Shown here: in pieces, positions 3,685 to 11,820 of the stretch
Layout of the letters: every line of letters starts with the position of its first letter
Position numbering within the stretch: position 1 is the first letter of the stretch
NCBI GenBank assembly: GCA_003223395.1
Contig: QHUZ01000034.1
Coordinates: forward strand, 1 to 64,000
Source: Gemmatimonadota bacterium
GTDB taxonomy: Bacteria > Gemmatimonadota > Gemmatimonadetes > Gemmatimonadales > GWC2-71-9
Direction of reading: 5' to 3'
DNA: 64,000 bases
The notes under the pieces: generated by a model
Databases searched by the model: none
The model's input: the letters and a program-made list of their open reading frames with translations, nothing else
Told to the model about the DNA's origin: nothing
Program-made: the position numbers and the translations under genes

Positions 3685-3957
3685 TCAGTTACGTGAGAAA
3701 TCGACCGTTACCACGATTGCGCTCGGCTTTGACGTCGGACGCTCCGTGGAAATCTGCGCCACCGTCGCGACAGCGTGCTCACTCTGAATTCTGGAATTCG
3801 TAACCGCCTGCCGGACAGCGCTCAGGGCCTGGAAGCCCTGGCGCGTATCCACGACCGTTGCGGTGGCTTGCAGTGTGCCACGGGCTTGGGCTTCTGCATT
3901 CCGCCCCACGAGCGTCAGCGCTGCGACCACGAAAACCGCTACGAGCCCGAACCGCAT
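3685..3957 (-). CDS. Small secreted protein, unknown function
   Basis: The 90-residue protein has a clear Sec signal peptide (residues 1-24, ending NAEAQA). Its mature part of about 66 residues starts GTLQATATVVDT and ends in a short beta-like strand VVTVDFSRN. The start is supported by AGGGGAG about seven bases upstream. It is transcribed divergently from the DUF4402 operon. The beginning of its mature region resembles that of the first DUF4402 protein (ITATASVQTP), but it is far too short for a full domain. It may be an accessory of the fibre system or unrelated. I do not recognise the family. Confidence 0.6.
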   Translation of the reverse strand: MRFGLVAVFVVAALTLVGRNAEAQARGTLQATATVVDTRQGFQALSAVRQAVTNSRIQSEHAVATVAQISTERPTSKPSAIVVTVDFSRN

Positions 3958-4097: not shown

Positions 4098-4112
4098 GTC
4101 AAGAATTCTGAC
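4098..4112. promoter_or_regulatory. Candidate activator dyad GTCA-N7-TGAC
   Basis: GTCA and TGAC flank AAGAATTC-like sequence. The dyad centre lies about 136 bases upstream of the predicted transcription start of the sigma-54 promoter, which is where enhancer-binding proteins commonly bind. This is a short dyad and only suggestive. Confidence 0.25.
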
Positions 4113-4173: not shown

Positions 4174-4195
4174 CTGTCGTCAAAAAATTAGACAG
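4174..4195. promoter_or_regulatory. Candidate activator dyad CTGTC-N12-GACAG
   Basis: A perfect 5-bp inverted repeat flanks an AT-rich centre, centred about 56 bases before the predicted transcription start. It could be an enhancer site for a sigma-54 activator, although it is closer to the promoter than is usual. Confidence 0.3.
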
Positions 4196-4214
4196 CGCAC
4201 AAGAATCTGGCGGT

Positions 4215-4230
4215 TGGCATAAGCCTTGCC
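4215..4230 (+). promoter_or_regulatory. Sigma-54 (RpoN) -24/-12 promoter
   Basis: TGGCAT, five bases, then TTGCC matches the RpoN consensus TGGCAC-N5-TTGC with exact spacing. The invariant GG (4216-4217) and GC (4228-4229) are 12 bases apart. Transcription would start near 4241, giving a leader of about 70 bases before the first DUF4402 gene. It drives a plus-strand operon of five genes. Confidence 0.7.
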
Positions 4231-4312
4231 TTGACGGCCATTCCGAAGGCAGGAGGTGCCGAATGGCACTCCTACTGACTAAAAGCTCGACACCAAACAC
4301 AGGAGTTACGCA

Positions 4313-4807
4313 ATGCGTATCACGAAGCTCTCCCTGGTGGTTGCCGCCCTCGTCCTCACGGGTACGGCCCTCCAGGCCCAGTCGAACAATGCCAGCATCA
4401 CGGCGACGGCGAGCGTGCAGACGCCGATCAACGTGCTTGGCGCGCAGCAGTTGAACTTCGGGAACGTCTTCCCGGGCGTGAACAAGACGGTCAACGCGAC
4501 CGACCTCACGAACGGTGGCCGTTTTGACGTCACCGGCCAGGCGAGCACGCCGGTTACCCTGTCGTTCACCCTTCCCGCGACGCTCTCGTCCGGCGGTAAC
4601 ACCATGCCGATCGTGAGCTATACGGGTGTCCATGCGCTGCTCGCCACGCAGGTTGGTGGTGTGGCGTTCTCGCCCGCAGCGGGCGCGACGCCGACCCTCA
4701 GCGGTACCGGCGCGCTGTTCGTGTGGGTTGGTGCGCAGGTGCAGCCGGCGACGAACCAGGTGGCTGGCGTGTATACTGGTTCCGTCGTCATGACGGTGGT
4801 CTACTAA
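4313..4807 (+). CDS. DUF4402 fibre subunit, first and probably major
   Basis: This 164-residue protein has a Sec signal peptide (to about residue 22, ALQAQS) and a mature DUF4402 domain. Typical elements are LNFGNVFPGVNKTV, GGRFDVTGQ and the closing block QPATNQVAGVYTGSVVMTVVY, split here as QPATNQVAGVYTG then SVVMTVVY. DUF4402 proteins are small secreted beta-sandwiches found beside chaperone/usher-like genes and are thought to be surface-structure subunits. AGGAG eight bases upstream sets the start. It is the first gene after the sigma-54 promoter and is followed by a strong intercistronic stem-loop, which fits a highly expressed major subunit. Confidence 0.85.
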   Translation: MRITKLSLVVAALVLTGTALQAQSNNASITATASVQTPINVLGAQQLNFGNVFPGVNKTVNATDLTNGGRFDVTGQASTPVTLSFTLPATLSSGGNTMPIVSYTGVHALLATQVGGVAFSPAAGATPTLSGTGALFVWVGAQVQPATNQVAGVYTGSVVMTVVY

Positions 4808-4837
4808 GCGACTGGCGTTTGGCGTCGAGCTGATGGC

Positions 4838-4872
4838 GCGCCGGCAGGGGATGCAAATTCCTCTGCCGGCGC
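4838..4872 (+). other. Intercistronic 14-bp stem-loop after first subunit gene
   Basis: GCGCCGGCAG pairs perfectly with CTGCCGGCGC, and the inner GGGA/TCCT adds four more pairs around the loop TGCAAAT. No T-tract follows, so it is not a standard intrinsic terminator. In classical fimbrial operons, similar hairpins stabilise the upstream major-subunit transcript. I infer the same role here. Confidence 0.75.
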
Positions 4873-4897
4873 TGTCGCAAGGAGATGCCTCAAACCT

Positions 4898-5362
4898 ATG
4901 AGACGCGAATCGTGGATCGTGATGGGGACGATGCTGCTCGGCGTGCCGCTCGTGGCACAGGGCAAGCCCGTCACCGTCACAGGCATTCGTAGCGTGACGT
5001 TCGGTGCGGTACTGCCGGGTGTGCCGCGCGTGGTGCTTCGCACCGATCCCGCCAACAGCGGCCAGTTCGACATCAAAGGACCCAAGGGTAACGTGCTGTT
5101 GTCGTTCGTCCTGCCGCTCACCATGACCGGACCAGCGGGAGCACAGATGCCTCTGACGTTTGGAGCCAGCGACGCAGGCTACTCCCAGACGCAGTCGATC
5201 GGGAGCCAGGTGGGATTCGATCCGAAGCAGCCGTTCACGGCGGCGATGCCGAACAATGGCCGCGCCTCGGTGTTCGTCGGCGGCACGGCCAATCCGGCCA
5301 CGAACCAGCGCGCCGGCGCCTACACTGCCACGATCATCCTGAACGTGACGGTGCTGCCATGA
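4898..5362 (+). CDS. DUF4402 fibre subunit, second
   Basis: The protein has 154 residues with a signal peptide (to about LVAQG, residue 22). The mature domain shows VTFGAVLPGVPRVV, SGQFDIKGPKGN, VLLSFVLP and the conserved end NPATNQRAGAYTATIILNVTV, here seen as NPATNQRAGAYT plus a terminal strand. It diverges clearly from the first subunit, so it is probably a minor, tip or adaptor subunit. A ribosome-binding site AAGGAG lies about 14 bases upstream. It overlaps the chaperone gene by 4 bases (ATGA), so the two are translationally coupled. Confidence 0.8.
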   Translation: MRRESWIVMGTMLLGVPLVAQGKPVTVTGIRSVTFGAVLPGVPRVVLRTDPANSGQFDIKGPKGNVLLSFVLPLTMTGPAGAQMPLTFGASDAGYSQTQSIGSQVGFDPKQPFTAAMPNNGRASVFVGGTANPATNQRAGAYTATIILNVTVLP

Positions 5363-6222
5363 TGCGGGCGCTCGGTCTCGCCGGCTTGCTGGCGCTCGCC
5401 GGCGCGTCGCTCACCGCCCAGGGCGTGATGGTCGCCCCGCACGCGGTGTTCATCGACCACAGCCGCGGCAGCGGATCGGTGCTCCTCTACAATCCGGGCA
5501 CCGAGCCGGTCGAAGTCTCGATCTCGACCATCTTCGGCTATCCGACTACGGACTCGAGCGGCAACATCAAGCTCAACACCATCGAGAATCCCGACTCGAC
5601 CGTGCCGTCTGCACTCGCATGGATCCAGGCCTTTCCGCGGCGGTTGACGGTGGCGCCGAAAGAGCGTCAGACCGTGCGCCTGCTCGCCCGGCCGCCCATC
5701 GGACTCGCCGACGGCGAATACTGGCTCCGGCTGGTGATTGCCGCTCAGGCCGGCACCGTGCCGATCACCGGTGTATCGGACACGACGGCGATCCAGGTCG
5801 GCCTCAAGCTCGAGGTTCGGACGATCATCGGTGTGAATTACCGCAAGGGCGCCGTTATGACGGGCGTGGCGCTGTCGAATCTGCGCGCCCAGGTCGTCGG
5901 CGACTCGGTCATCACGCGCGCGAGGCTCGAGCGCCGCGGTAACGCCGCTTTCATCGGGATGATTCGCGAGACGATCGTCGACTCGACCGGTGCGGTGCGT
6001 GCGCAACGCATCGGGGATTCACTCATCACGGCGTACCAGTCGCCGATCGGCGTCTACTTCACGATGGAGCCGCGGCTCGCGAGCGCGATCCCGGCGCCGG
6101 GACTGCCACGCGGCCGCTATTGGCTGCGCTACGAAGTCGTCGCTGAGCGCGAGGATCTCGATCCCAAAGTCGTGCTGAAGGCGCCGGCGGTGCGCGATTC
6201 CGTCCAGCTCGTGGTTCCGTGA
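5359..6222 (+). CDS. PapD-like periplasmic chaperone
   Basis: This 287-residue protein has a signal peptide (to about residue 21) and an N-terminal Ig-like domain of the fimbrial chaperone type. Visible elements are VAPHAVFIDHSRGSGSVLL, the strand LYNPGTEPVEVSIS, and FPRRLTVAPKERQTVRLLAR, which matches the G1-strand/hinge region of PapD relatives. A second beta domain follows, ending with RGRYWLRYEVVAERED. Such chaperones donate a strand to fibre subunits in the periplasm and deliver them to the usher. It sits between subunit genes 2 and 3, overlapping both by 4 bases. It is longer than PapD (about 220 mature residues). Confidence 0.75.
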   Translation: MMRALGLAGLLALAGASLTAQGVMVAPHAVFIDHSRGSGSVLLYNPGTEPVEVSISTIFGYPTTDSSGNIKLNTIENPDSTVPSALAWIQAFPRRLTVAPKERQTVRLLARPPIGLADGEYWLRLVIAAQAGTVPITGVSDTTAIQVGLKLEVRTIIGVNYRKGAVMTGVALSNLRAQVVGDSVITRARLERRGNAAFIGMIRETIVDSTGAVRAQRIGDSLITAYQSPIGVYFTMEPRLASAIPAPGLPRGRYWLRYEVVAEREDLDPKVVLKAPAVRDSVQLVVP

Positions 6223-6731
6223 GAAAGATCCTGCTGCTCGTCGTGTGGCTTGGTCTGCCCGGACGTCTCACGGCGCAGTCTGGGGCGACCGTCTCGGCCG
6301 ACGCCGTCGTCGTGACGGTCGGCATGACGATCGCGACGCTGCAGGACTTGAACTTCGGCACGGTCATCAAGGGCGTTCCGACGACCGTGCTGCCGACTGC
6401 CGCGAACGCGGGTCAGTGGCAGGTGAGCGGTAGTGCCAACGCCTTCGTGATCATCAACTTCACGCTGCCGACACAGCTGACCAATATCCAGGCGTTGCCG
6501 GGCTCCACGATGCCCATTTCGTTCAGCGCGGTGTCGGCAATCTGGCGTCGCTCGACGAACAATCCTGTAGGTGGCAACGTGTTCAATCCCGCGGTGGGGG
6601 CCGTTGGTCGCCTGGGTCCGCCTCCGAATTTCAACATGTACGTCTGGGTGGGCGGCACCGTGAACCCCCCGCTGACGGCGAAGCCTGGGATTTATCAAGG
6701 GAACGTCATCGTTTCCCTGATCTACCAGTAG
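6219..6731 (+). CDS. DUF4402 fibre subunit, third
   Basis: This 170-residue protein starts at GTG inside the chaperone stop (GTGA). It has a signal peptide (to about RLTAQS, residue 20) and a DUF4402 domain with LQDLNFGTVIKGVPTTV, AGQWQVSGSANAF, VIINFTLP and a terminal GIYQGNVIVSLIYQ. A longer insert, RRSTNNPVGGNVFNPAVG, precedes the final strands. It is probably another minor subunit, and its gene directly precedes the usher-like gene with a three-base gap. Confidence 0.8.
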   Translation: MRKILLLVVWLGLPGRLTAQSGATVSADAVVVTVGMTIATLQDLNFGTVIKGVPTTVLPTAANAGQWQVSGSANAFVIINFTLPTQLTNIQALPGSTMPISFSAVSAIWRRSTNNPVGGNVFNPAVGAVGRLGPPPNFNMYVWVGGTVNPPLTAKPGIYQGNVIVSLIYQ

Positions 6732-6734
6732 GCC

Positions 6735-9278
6735 ATGCTTGCCTTGCTGGCGGCTCTGACCCTCGGTGCCGTCGCGCCTCAGGACACCACCCCGGAAGCG
6801 GTCGTGATCGAGCTGCGCATCGGTCGCGTCACGGGCACGACGGTGCAGGCGTATCGCGTGCGCTCCGAGGTGCTGCTGCCGCTTTCACAGTTCTTTCAGC
6901 TCGTCGAGGTCCGCCATCGGCTGACCCCGGACGGCCGGCTGGAAGCGACGGTCGATCCCGGCAACGTCCGCATCGTGATCGATCCGCGCAGTGATTCGAT
7001 GCAGTACGGCGCGCGCCGCGTGCGCATCGAGCACGAATTCATTCGCTACGAGTCCGCGGAGCTCTACGTCGGCAGCGAGCGTCTCGGTGACCTCCTCGGC
7101 GTGATGTTCGCCGTCGATTGGTCCGATCTCACCGCCACCGTCATCGATCCGGGCAGCCTGCCCATCGCGCGGCGCTTGCGGCGCGAAGCTGCACGCGAAG
7201 CCTATCTGCGGCGCCCCGACGGCATGCGCGCCGACCTGACGCTCGGTCTGCAGCGCCCCTCGTGGGACGGCGTGGTGGTCGATTATTCGCTCTTTTCACC
7301 GTCGAGCGACCCGCTTGCCGGATCGACCTACGGATTCGGTCTTGGCGCCGACGTCGGCGGCGGATCACTCGAGATGCTGGCGCAGAGTGTCGGTCCGGCG
7401 GAGCAGGGTCGGCTCCACATCGATGGCTCGTGGACCGGCGTGTGGCGCGAGAACCGCTGGGTGAAGCAGCTGCGGTTCGGCGATGTGGCCTCCACGGGCC
7501 CGCGCTCGCGCGCGCTCGAGGGCGTCTCCATCACCAATGCGCCGTTCGTCCGGCCGTCGCTCATCGGTTCGCTGCGCTACGGCGGCAGCCTCGAGCCGGG
7601 ATGGTCGGTCGAGGCGTATCGGGGCGGCGATCTCGTGGCCTACGATTCGGCCGACGCCTCGGGCGGATTCTCCATGGCGCTTCCGGTGCGCTACGGCGAA
7701 AACCCGGTCGACTTCGTCGCCTACGGGCCGTTCGGCGAGATCCGCGAATTCAACCGCACCTACCGCGTGCTGAGCGAGCTGCTGCCCGCCCGCCGGTTCG
7801 AGTATGGGCTGTCGGGAGGCCGCTGCCCGCAGCCGTCGTTCATCTGCAATGCGACGACGAATCTCGATCTGCGGTTCGGCGCCACCGCGCGGTGGACGGT
7901 GCAGGGTGGACTGGATCAGTACTGGCGCGACTCGCTTCCCGATCGGACGCATCCCTACGCGGCACTCGTCGGGAATCCGAGTAACGCCTGGGCGATCCAG
8001 AGTGAGGTGGTGGGTGCGGGACTCGTGCGAGGCGCGCTGCGCTACGAGCCGTCCGTCGATCTCCGGCTTGAAGGGGAGTACGTGCACTTCACGCGGGATT
8101 CGGCATCGGTGCTCGCCGTGCCCGGTCGCCGCGCGCAGTGGACCTTCACAGGCTTTTTCCGCCCCAAGACGAGCCAGGGATTCTTCTTCTTTGAGGGGCG
8201 ATTCGAGCGCATCAGCACCGACGCCGGCGCGTTGACCCGCACCCGCCTGGGCGCATCACTGCAGACCAACGAGATGCGGTTCCTGCCCTACGTGCGTACC
8301 GAACATGGGCAGACCACGACCGGGCCCAGCGGTGTGAACAATCGGGAATATGCGGGTCTTGCGACGTTCCTGATGCCGCAAGCCCGCTGGGGCAGGTTCC
8401 TGAGCCAGACGTTGGTGCGGACGAATGCGGAGATCGAACGGCAGGCTGGACTCGTTTCGTGGTCGGCCTTCGCCGCGCACCCGCTCGCGCGCGGCGTGCG
8501 TGTCGAAGTCGGCGCGAATTGGCTGCGCGGCGATGCCGGACTTACCTACACCGTGACCGTGACCTCGTATTTCTCGGCCCTGCGCGCCGTCACATCGATG
8601 ATCGCGCCTTCGGGTCAGCCCGCCAGCGCCACCCAGTTCCTCCAGGGGTCGGTGCTGTGGGATCGGCGGACCGATCGACTGGGCGTGGCCCCTGGGCCCT
8701 CACTCGAACGGTCCGGCCTGTCGGGCCATGTGTTCATGGATCTCAACGCCAACGGTATCCGTGACGTCGGCGAACCCGCGGTAGCGGACGCGCGCGTGCT
8801 GGTCGGCTCGATGTCGGCTAACACGGACTCGAGCGGCGCCTACCACGTGTGGGATCTGGTTCCCTTCGAGCCGGTCATCGTGAGTCTCGACTCGGTGTCG
8901 CTGGATTCGCCGCTGCTCGTGCCGCTGTTCGCGCGTACGAGCATCGTCCCCGGGCCCAATCGGTTCCGCAGTCTCGACATCCCGGTGGTGGCCGCGGGCG
9001 TCATCGAGGGCCGCGTGCTGCGCAATAATGCCGGGGTGGGCGGCGTGACGCTCATCCTCACCGATCGGCGCACCGGCACGGGGCGCAGCCTCGTCACGTT
9101 CAACGACGGTGCCTTTTATCTGATGGGTGTGAAGCCGGGGGACTACGAGCTGCGGGTGGACGAGCAGGTGCTCGATGCGCTCGCGGTGGACGCGGAGCCG
9201 GTCCGGTTCAGCCTCGCACCTACGGCAAACGGGATCGGGCGATCGGATCTCGAGGTGCGCCTCAAGTCGAGGTTTTAG
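6735..9278 (+). CDS. Usher-like outer-membrane assembly protein with C-terminal Ig/regulatory domains
   Basis: The protein has 847 residues with a short signal peptide (1-15). An N-terminal periplasmic domain (about 20-135) precedes a long beta-barrel-like region. Within this, VEAYRGGDLVAYDS to FGEIREFNRTYRV (about 290-345) resembles the plug/middle-domain sequence of fimbrial ushers. The C-terminus has an SdrD-B-like domain starting GHVFMDLNANGIRDVGEP (about 661) with a Ca-loop-like pattern. A carboxypeptidase-regulatory-like domain follows (IEGRVLRNNAGVGGVTLIL, about 755-815). It is the last gene of the operon and overlaps the convergent sensor kinase gene by 17 bases. The role, secretion and assembly of the DUF4402 subunits, is inferred. 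Confidence 0.75.
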   Translation: MLALLAALTLGAVAPQDTTPEAVVIELRIGRVTGTTVQAYRVRSEVLLPLSQFFQLVEVRHRLTPDGRLEATVDPGNVRIVIDPRSDSMQYGARRVRIEHEFIRYESAELYVGSERLGDLLGVMFAVDWSDLTATVIDPGSLPIARRLRREAAREAYLRRPDGMRADLTLGLQRPSWDGVVVDYSLFSPSSDPLAGSTYGFGLGADVGGGSLEMLAQSVGPAEQGRLHIDGSWTGVWRENRWVKQLRFGDVASTGPRSRALEGVSITNAPFVRPSLIGSLRYGGSLEPGWSVEAYRGGDLVAYDSADASGGFSMALPVRYGENPVDFVAYGPFGEIREFNRTYRVLSELLPARRFEYGLSGGRCPQPSFICNATTNLDLRFGATARWTVQGGLDQYWRDSLPDRTHPYAALVGNPSNAWAIQSEVVGAGLVRGALRYEPSVDLRLEGEYVHFTRDSASVLAVPGRRAQWTFTGFFRPKTSQGFFFFEGRFERISTDAGALTRTRLGASLQTNEMRFLPYVRTEHGQTTTGPSGVNNREYAGLATFLMPQARWGRFLSQTLVRTNAEIERQAGLVSWSAFAAHPLARGVRVEVGANWLRGDAGLTYTVTVTSYFSALRAVTSMIAPSGQPASATQFLQGSVLWDRRTDRLGVAPGPSLERSGLSGHVFMDLNANGIRDVGEPAVADARVLVGSMSANTDSSGAYHVWDLVPFEPVIVSLDSVSLDSPLLVPLFARTSIVPGPNRFRSLDIPVVAAGVIEGRVLRNNAGVGGVTLILTDRRTGTGRSLVTFNDGAFYLMGVKPGDYELRVDEQVLDALAVDAEPVRFSLAPTANGIGRSDLEVRLKSRF

Positions 9279-11820
9279 CCGCTTCGGCCACCTGCCGGAG
9301 CACTTCCTCGAGTTTCGCGAAATCATACGGCTTCACGAGCGACGGTACACCCGCGTCCCTCAGCAACGACGACGTGTCCGCCGCGAACGTGTCGCCGGTC
9401 GTGAAGATGAGGCGCTTCACCATCGCCGGATGCTCGCGGCGCAGCCGTTCCAGAAACTCGCCGCCGCTCATCCCGGGCATGCGGACATCCGAGACGATGA
9501 CATCGAAGCGCTCGCGCCGCAGAACCCGGAGCGCGTCGCCGCCGTCTTCCACCGCGATCACGTGCATGCCGCGCCGTTTGAGGAAGCTCACCACGGCCCG
9601 GCGCAGGCCTTCTTCGTCGTCGATCAGCAGCACGGAAAGCGCGCTCCGCGCGTCCGATTCGCGTGCTTCTGCTGGTATCTCCATGGGTGGCGGCGTCGAC
9701 CGTTGCCGGGTGCGGGCATCCCGCGGTAGCGCGACCGTGAACGTCGCGCCGCTTCCCGGGACGGAGCTCACCGAGATCCGGCCGCCATGGTCGTGTACGA
9801 TTCCGTAACAGATGGACAGGCCGAGTCCCGTCCCCGCGCCTTCCGGCTTGGTCGTGAAGAACGGATCGAAGATTTTTTCCTGGATGTCGGCCGGGATGCC
9901 CGGGCCGGTGTCGGCGACCTGGAGCTCGACGCCGTCCTCGCCGGCGGCCATCGTTCGAATCGTTATGACGCGCCGGCCACTCACCGTGATCAACGCCTGC
10001 TCGGCGTTGATCAGCAGATTGAGCAAGAGCTGCTGCACCTCCGCGCCGTTGGCCCACGCCTTGGGGTTCGCCTCGTCGAGCTCGAGATTCACGGTGATGT
10101 TGAGCGTGGTCAGATGGTACGAGCGCAGCGCGAAGGTGCGGCGGACGATTTCGTTCAACTCCACGAGGGTCCGCTCCTTGCTTCCGGCGCGTGCGAACGC
10201 CAGCAGGTTCGACGTAATGCGGCCGATGCGGGTCGCTTCGTCGTACATCATCTGGACGGTCTCGCGGTGATCGGGCGCGAGCTGATCGAGCAACAGCGTC
10301 TGGGCGAAGCCGGAGATGATGGCGGCGGGGTTGTTGATCTCGTGGGCGACGCCGCTCACGAGCTGGCCCATGGCGGCGAGCTTCTCGGCCTGCTGCAGCT
10401 GCGTTTGCGTGCGGCGCTGCTCCGTGATGTCGCGGACGAGGACCAGAACTTTGGGGATCCGGCCGCCTTCGCGCACCGGTGCGAGCAGGACCTGGCCGGT
10501 GCCATCGGTGCCGTCGGGCCGCTGAAACGGCACCTCGAAACGCCGCAGCTCGCCATCGAATGCCGCGGCGAGATTCTCTCGCGCGATGCGCGCTCCGGGT
10601 CCATCGAGCCATCCCAACGCCGAGCGCCTGCCGCCGCTCTCCCGCACATCGCCCGCGGACGCGTTGACGAGGGCGCGACCGGAGGAATTTTCATCGAGCA
10701 CGTGGCCGTCGCGGTCCACCACGGTGATGGCGTCGGGGACCGCCTCCATGAGCAGCCGGAGGTTGCGCTCGGCCGACGCGGTCGCGCCGAGCGAGCTCAT
10801 CAGCGAACGGGTCTGATTGGCGACCTCATCCTCGAGGATGTGCGCATACCGGCGCGTCACGCCCAGGGAGTAGAGCACGCGGGCGGCGATGATCGCCATC
10901 CCGATGCCGATCATGACGGCGGCGTCGCGTTCCGGCGGATTCAGGACGGCATCGATCGCCATTCCCGTGATCGCGGCGAGGCCGATGACCAGGGCAATGA
11001 AACGCGCGGCGGTCGACTCGCCGGTCGTCTGTCGGCCACGCTGGAGGTGCTGGGCGTAGTCGGGCGCGACCGCCGCCGCCGCCGCAATGAGCAGCAACCC
11101 GACGTCCCACGTGAGATCCAGGGGGCCGCCCGCGTGATAGGTGCCGCGTAGCGCGACGACGGCGTAGACCTGATCGCCGATGACAAACAGAATCGCGGCC
11201 GGAAGCACGAGGGCGGCCGTTGCGGCGGGAAAGACGGGCCGGCGCAGCATCTGCATCAGGATCATCCACAACACCGCGATCGCGCTGATCGACCACGCAA
11301 TGCTCGTGACGAGTGCGGCGGCGGGTACCTGCGCGCCTCCGGCCAGCAAGGGCTCGAGGAGATATTCATACGCGAGGGCGCCGACGGTGAACGTCACGAG
11401 CACGGTGTCGAGGATCAGCTCGGGATCGGAGCGCCGCGCGGGTTGGCCCCGCATGAGCGTCGTGAGACCCACGAACAGGCAGGCATAGAATCCGAGGAAT
11501 CCCACGTCCGCAACCGACGGATACGGTGGGCCGCCGCGGACGAGATCGTAGAAATTCCACGCGAGCTGACCAGCGAAGAACGACGCACACCCCGCGCTGA
11601 TCCATTGCCACGCGCGGCGCTGCTCGGACGTTGTGAGGCCGCGGGCGGAGGCGAAGCAGGCGAACGCGGCGAAGCCGGCCGCCCAGGTCCAGCACAGATC
11701 GCTGATGATGGTGAGCGTGCGCCGGTCGCCGGCCGGGAATGCGTACAGGAGTACCATCGCCACGAGCGATACGGCGGCGATGCTGACCAACACGCGAGCG
11801 GGCCGGCTCAGCGGCATCAT
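9262..11820 (-). CDS. Membrane hybrid sensor histidine kinase with receiver domain
   Basis: This 852-residue protein has about eight to nine hydrophobic segments (residues 8-320) and a PAS domain (about 350-470, starting [17 protein letters not shown]). A HisKA domain carries phospho-acceptor His493 in GVAHEINNP. The ATPase domain shows the N-box ([11 protein letters not shown]), [15 protein letters not shown] and GTGLGLS. The C-terminal receiver domain has Asp778 in VSDVRMPG and the conserved Lys in LVKPYD. The multi-span N-terminus is a MASE-like sensor. It converges on the fibre operon and diverges from the sugar isomerase gene. It could control either one, but no DNA-binding partner is adjacent. 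Confidence 0.9.

Follow-up and report, generated by a model that had tools for sequence, protein, structure and literature searches.

Donor strands of chaperone-usher pilins are marked by hydrophobic residues that alternate along the N-terminal extension, and ushers have a 24-strand barrel whose sixth strand is followed by a loop that holds a plug. Here we compare the described branches of this machinery, classical (beta, gamma, kappa and pi clades; Fim/Pap), alternative (alpha-clade, ECP) and archaic (sigma-clade, Csu), with a five-gene operon in a 64,000-nucleotide (nt) stretch of Gemmatimonadota DNA (GenBank contig QHUZ01000034.1, positions 1 to 64,000; hereafter the window), which comes from a draft genome of 3.41 Mb in 123 contigs. 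In classical chaperones, two basic residues of domain 1 anchor the subunit C-terminus, whereas archaic and alternative chaperones use Arg89 together with Tyr196/Arg174, and Arg89 on strand F1 (in CsuC and EcpB) is described as the hallmark of the non-classical type (PMC4654587). Control of pili and flagella by sigma-54 is in general well known (PMC3162934). A 2023 survey of Gemmatimonadota names flagella and type IV pili and leaves fimbriae and ushers unmentioned (PMC10581226), and our literature searches found nothing on chaperone-usher pili in Gemmatimonadota and no paper mentioning DUF4402, the family of the subunits described here.

The operon consists of five genes that span 4313-9278 on the forward strand: the subunit genes S1 (4313..4807; 164 amino acids, aa) and S2 (4898..5362; 154 aa), the chaperone gene CH (5359..6222; 287 aa), a third subunit gene, S3 (6219..6731; 170 aa), and the usher gene US (6735..9278; 847 aa). 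S2 and CH overlap at an ATGA junction, the GTG start of S3 overlaps the CH stop, and the GC content at third codon positions is 0.82-0.85 in all five genes, a strong coding signal. A first-pass annotation made from the sequence alone had claimed five overlapping or near-contiguous genes, all of which were found and are co-directional. We consider it very likely that this is a divergent, non-classical chaperone-usher pilus operon whose DUF4402 subunits form fibres by donor-strand exchange, and soil Gemmatimonadota probably build surface fibres with the machine encoded here. The annotation had also proposed a distinct surface-fibre system; usher fold, chaperone homology and synteny uphold the part of this claim that concerns chaperone-usher assembly with DUF4402 proteins, and the part that concerns fibres stays conditional.

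In the mechanism we propose, S1, S2 and S3 would be exported into the periplasm as incomplete beta-sandwiches, and CH would lend its G1 strand to them, keeping them soluble and handing them to US. The usher, a plugged 24-strand outer-membrane barrel, would then link the subunits by donor-strand exchange and secrete the fibre, with the N-terminal extension of each incoming subunit completing the preceding one. Since S2 lacks an extension, it would start the fibre as the tip, and S1 (and S3) would form the shaft. Transcription would proceed from a sigma-54 promoter turned on by an activator bound at the pair of palindromes upstream of it, and S1 would become the most abundant product through the hairpin that follows its gene.

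Three different DUF4402 proteins had been claimed initially, and searches with the family model (PF14352, curated cut-off 25.2 bits) confirmed them, with S3 clearly over the cut-off (30.2 bits), S1 barely over it (25.4) and S2, which is thus DUF4402-like, just under it (23.7). In the whole genome, DUF4402 was found only at this operon. The stretch from the mature N-terminus to a conserved FG motif measured 24-28 residues in the S1 class and in subunits encoded after the chaperone gene and about 9-17 in the S2 class (14 in S2 of the window), where N-termini came from automatic signal-peptide cleavage that was clearly wrong in a few cases. Within the 10-12 extra residues of the first-gene class, positions -20, -18, -16 and -14 were hydrophobic in 75-84% of 32 sequences, compared to just 6-38% for the positions in between, and the S3-class extension showed the same alternation at -21, -19, -17 and -15. 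This pattern suggests that the extensions of S1 and S3 are likely donor strands, and S1 is likely the major subunit.

Nearly all complete operons had one extension-less subunit, usually encoded beside the chaperone gene. The order was swapped at two loci (L053 and L081), where the pre-chaperone subunit has the extension and the post-chaperone subunit is without it. Judging from sequence, the extension-less subunit, which is S2 in the window, is probably the fibre tip. The chaperone orthologue of L053 was folded with AlphaFold2 (AF2) while joined by read-through to the neighbouring subunit; the subunit extension was disordered in this model (predicted local distance difference test, pLDDT, < 50), and the confident core ended on its last strand at the C-terminus, as should be expected of a chaperone-bound pilin. 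The number of subunit genes per operon ranged from one to four. L040/L041 and L141 had four, rather than two or three, which suggests subunit duplication.

It is possible, though in our view doubtful, that what the machine exports is instead a coat, either thin and capsule-like or short and adhesive, with DUF4402 proteins as flexible fibres like those of F1-antigen-type systems and no extended pilus. Small subunits of one type, the shared machinery and the failure to find a two-domain tip adhesin in the operon would all suit a coat, but the presence of up to four different subunits and of a dedicated extension-less subunit suggests an ordered, tipped fibre. We regard it as quite improbable that the chaperone-usher pair is real and the DUF4402 proteins are complete domains secreted without donor-strand polymerisation. 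That DUF4402 profiles go unmatched to pilin families would favour this reading, but the alternating-hydrophobic extension is present in S1 and S3 and absent from S2, DUF4402 is strictly linked to a chaperone and an usher, and the subunits have a pilin-like C-terminus of the form GxY...TVxY, with S3 ending in LIYQ.

Returning to the chaperone-usher pilus, the terms PapD-like and usher-like were at first inferences, because CH had gone unmatched and US had matched domain models only at its C-terminal domains. Both assignments were later borne out. For the chaperone, a profile of the CH family matched E. coli chaperones (Prob 97.3, E 7.1e-11), the Pfam model PapD_N matched three of four plasmid-encoded relatives (two of them above cut-off) and, with weak scores, 7 of the 21 chaperones from Gemmatimonadota, and a Foldseek search of the PDB with the L053 chaperone model returned FimC, CupB2, CsuC, CfaA and Caf1M (best E 5e-8). 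The proline conserved across the superfamily is invariant in the CH family (P93) and lies in an aligned PR/PP segment. At the positions of the classical pair Arg8/Lys112, CH has Ala29 and Gly158, and its Arg124, invariant in 21 sequences, aligns with the Arg of EcpB and with that of an archaic chaperone from another Gemmatimonadota genome (L138, below), so that CH is non-classical by its cleft-residue signature. In domain 2, Y254 is invariant and R239 nearly so, in a region where alignment with the Tyr196/Arg174 anchors is unreliable. A donor P0 residue like the aromatic Tyr116 of the archaic CsuC was considered for CH and dropped, as the alignment places Thr155 there.

For the usher, an AF2 model of US built with 24 family members (mean pLDDT 87.6, predicted template modelling score 0.71) showed, in order, an N-terminal domain (NTD; residues 20-136, positions 6792..7142 of the forward strand), six barrel strands (residues 177-267), a plug (strands in 276-345, about residues 270-346 overall; 7542..7772, forward strand), a further 18 strands (355-643) and two C-terminal sandwiches (660-745 and 755-845). 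US therefore has the NTD, the 24 strands, the plug between strands 6 and 7 and the two C-terminal domains (CTD1 and CTD2) of an usher. Foldseek ranks 1-15 against the PDB were all FimD or PapC (best E 3.4e-30), and unrelated barrels such as LptD and FrpB came next at E 1e-5 to 1e-4. When four Proteobacterial relatives were included, the family profile was collinear over 759 columns with seven ushers of E. coli K-12 (E 1.5e-17), and the cross-pairs used as negatives, the chaperone profile against ushers and the usher profile against chaperones, were empty. Single-sequence PDB searches identified neither usher nor chaperone, PDB profile searches found CTD look-alikes only (NOMO2, SdrD), and hhalign with a profile limited to Gemmatimonadota ushers did not yield a usable match to those K-12 proteins.

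The usher alignment also placed the plug on the FimD plug, the SdrD_B-like stretch (residues about 660-745; 8712..8969, forward strand) on FimD CTD1, with common TD..G and P..G motifs, and the CarboxypepD_reg-like stretch (residues about 755-845; 8997..9269, forward strand) on FimD CTD2. The first-pass annotation had described these two stretches as extra C-terminal domains, a claim that did not hold: because they fall on the positions of the standard domains, we read them as diverged versions of the ordinary usher CTD1 and CTD2. Immediately past the plug, the cysteines C364 and C371 are invariant in the family. That the barrel is instead an unrelated porin or TonB-type protein lacking an usher plug, which the first-pass annotation had named as a refuting outcome, with carboxypeptidase-like domains and an operon for surface-protein export or a nutrient system, is hardly credible, as the recognition of only its C-terminal domains by Pfam and the annotation of Proteobacterial homologues as carboxypeptidase regulatory-like proteins are set against 24 strands, a plug between strands 6 and 7, and a Foldseek lead of ushers over other barrels, LptD and FrpB among them, of more than 20 orders of magnitude.

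Genomes were searched for the gene order, as suggested at the outset, and S-S-CH-(S)-US recurred on more than 30 further contigs from Gemmatimonadota. Of 61 genomes of the same family, 34 had the usher itself at E <= 0.001, in most cases over most of the protein. Across the phylum, at least 45 of the 249 genomes sampled had a full-length or near-full-length match, a count of strong matches, weaker ones being mostly SdrD_B domains only. The set of genes also occurred in one Krumholzibacteriia contig (L087) and, in the same order, on four Proteobacterial plasmids: two from Polaromonas (JS666 and E5S) and one each from Sphingopyxis indica and Pseudoalteromonas xiamenensis. These plasmid clusters encode homologous ushers, with pieces 27-36% identical, and homologous chaperones, and their DUF4402 proteins, which already carry that family name in the records, are very divergent; the ushers are annotated as carboxypeptidase regulatory-like proteins and the chaperones as molecular or fimbrial chaperones, and one Polaromonas chaperone already carries the name fimbria/pilus periplasmic chaperone. 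A further usher homologue, at L084/L050, is about 1170 aa long with an N-terminal membrane-like extension, and may reflect an usher that has taken on another role or an error in the sequence.

Among described systems, classical Fim/Pap pili share with this operon a 24-strand plugged usher with NTD, CTD1 and CTD2, a PapD-like chaperone, and several subunits per operon, one of them without an extension. They differ in their Arg8/Lys112 pair, which has no equivalent in CH, in a subunit family unrelated to DUF4402 by sequence, in the FimH-like two-domain adhesin that is not in this operon, and in their CTD1 and CTD2, which in US resemble SdrD_B and CarboxypepD_reg. The initial claim of distinctness from classical Pap and Fim is supported. 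Alternative ECP pili share the chaperone arginine, that of CH aligning with that of EcpB, but the US profile had no match to EcpC (Prob 0.2%), the subunits differ, and the window encodes a single chaperone. Archaic Csu pili come close in the chaperone, since CsuC likewise carries Arg89 and has no classical basic pair and was matched by Foldseek to the CH orthologue, and both systems are widely distributed over phyla. The archaic subunits, however, are SCPU proteins, not DUF4402, US is too divergent for Pfam, and in one family the system described here is under sigma-54 control. The archaic SCPU type was present in only 2 of 150 sampled genomes, and SCPU (PF05229) was absent from the genome of the window. 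L138 (G114:C1:3706000-3711500) is a separate archaic Csu-like set in one sampled Gemmatimonadota genome, with SCPU subunits, a chaperone homologous to CsuC, and an usher, and differs from the DUF4402 type.

The machinery is of a known kind, and what is new is the DUF4402 subunit family, a divergence invisible to the Pfam Usher model, the distribution and the conserved sigma-54 control. PF00577 had no match in the window protein or in the whole genome at E up to 10, and its best score in a relative was 9.8 bits against a cut-off of 27.1. Since domain models are blind to this machinery, surveys built on them would credit Gemmatimonadota and related soil bacteria with few or no chaperone-usher pili. 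The operon gives DUF4402 a concrete, testable function, that of a fibre subunit, and extends the range of sequences covered by ushers and chaperones. It is also a system where sequence is enough to name the tip subunit, and it provides a phylum that has been little studied with a defined sigma-54 promoter and candidate enhancer sites. We suggest tentatively, at somewhat less than even odds, that it represents a fourth main branch of chaperone-usher systems beside the classical, alternative and archaic ones, with its own subunits (DUF4402) and its own usher C-terminal domains, found in Gemmatimonadota, a Krumholzibacteriia contig and Alpha-, Beta- and Gammaproteobacteria, and placed under sigma-54 and paired-enhancer control in one Gemmatimonadota family.

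The regulatory region begins at about 4098, upstream of the start noted earlier. It contains, all on the forward strand, a distal palindrome GTCAAGAATTCTGAC (GTC-N9-GAC; 4098..4112) and a proximal palindrome GTCAAAAAATTAGAC (4179..4193) with the same motif, both candidate sites for an enhancer-binding protein, followed by a sigma-54 -24/-12 promoter element with one mismatch, TGGCATAAGCCTTGCC (4215..4230). As 1.28 matches of this type are expected by chance in the window, the element is not significant alone and its reality rests on comparative evidence. Among 30 non-redundant operons, a set within which usher identity drops to 32-35%, 26 had a strict pattern ([TCG]GGCA[CT][GAT]N4TTGC) 100-190 nt ahead of the first subunit domain, and these loci held only one other match in a total of 623,404 strand-bases; because the pattern was settled on following an initial, more loosely weighted scan, and because the genomes are related, this comparison does not give an exact probability. 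The RpoN-type promoter proposed in the first pass is borne out by this conservation across the Gemmatimonadota family of the window.

Palindromes of the form GTC-N9-GAC were about 5-fold enriched, at gap 9 only, with a consensus of about YGTCAA-N5-TTGACA. Their positions were fixed, with the distal palindrome 116-118 nt before the -24 box in eight operons (plus one at 96 nt) and the proximal palindrome 36-39 nt before it in eight operons. The genome encodes rpoN and has about ten strong matches to AAA+ activators, so the -24/-12 element, the upstream candidate site, the sigma factor and the activators of a sigma-54 operon are all present, and an activator may bind the two palindromes. Strict sigma-54 sites numbered five in the genome and three in a reversed control, which is near chance. 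The other four (L133, L130, L132 and L129) precede unrelated genes, including one for a 220-aa predicted outer-membrane-like protein (L133) and a probable malate synthase gene (L130), and the paired palindrome is absent from all four. Within the operon, a GC-rich stem-loop lies in the S1-S2 gap (4834..4877, forward strand) and forms a stable hairpin (z -4.4). Most S1-S2 gaps hold such a hairpin despite unrelated stems (z -2 to -8 in most others, relative to mononucleotide shuffles), and L083 has none. The hairpin likely keeps expression of the genes behind it below that of S1, as one would expect if S1 is the product made in excess.

Several observations weigh against a chaperone-usher pilus. 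CH of the window alone had zero Pfam or NCBIfam matches, and single-sequence searches of the same models with US gave no usher match, only CarboxypepD_reg and SdrD_B at the C-terminus. The strong usher profile match needed the four added Proteobacterial relatives, as the Gemmatimonadota-only profile matched the classical usher set weakly (E 0.0017), and the DUF4402 profile had no match among known pilins (Prob 11% for archaic SCPU, 0.3% for E. coli pilins). Extension length deviates in a few operons, being ambiguous in L029 and L087 and intermediate in L051. No DUF4402 or chaperone genes were detectable near the long usher homologue of L084/L050, and the sigma-54 site was missing from all three operons of other families whose upstream region was covered (L140-L142). 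Gene set, synteny, usher fold, chaperone homology, the extension dichotomy and promoter conservation are computational results; donor-strand exchange and fibre formation are steps that we infer, as are the tip role of S2, activator binding and the effect of the hairpin.

Two neighbouring genes flank the operon. A convergent gene at 9262-11820 on the reverse strand encodes a hybrid PAS histidine kinase with a C-terminal receiver; its 3' end overlaps that of the usher gene by 17 nt. On the other side, the small divergent gene X0 (3685-3957, reverse strand) was considered as a further subunit, which the evidence did not support. It has no Pfam match and is conserved only in close relatives, in several of which it also adjoins the operon, and it encodes a short secreted protein of 90 aa with the motif AQxRGTLQATATVVD...VVTVDFxRN.

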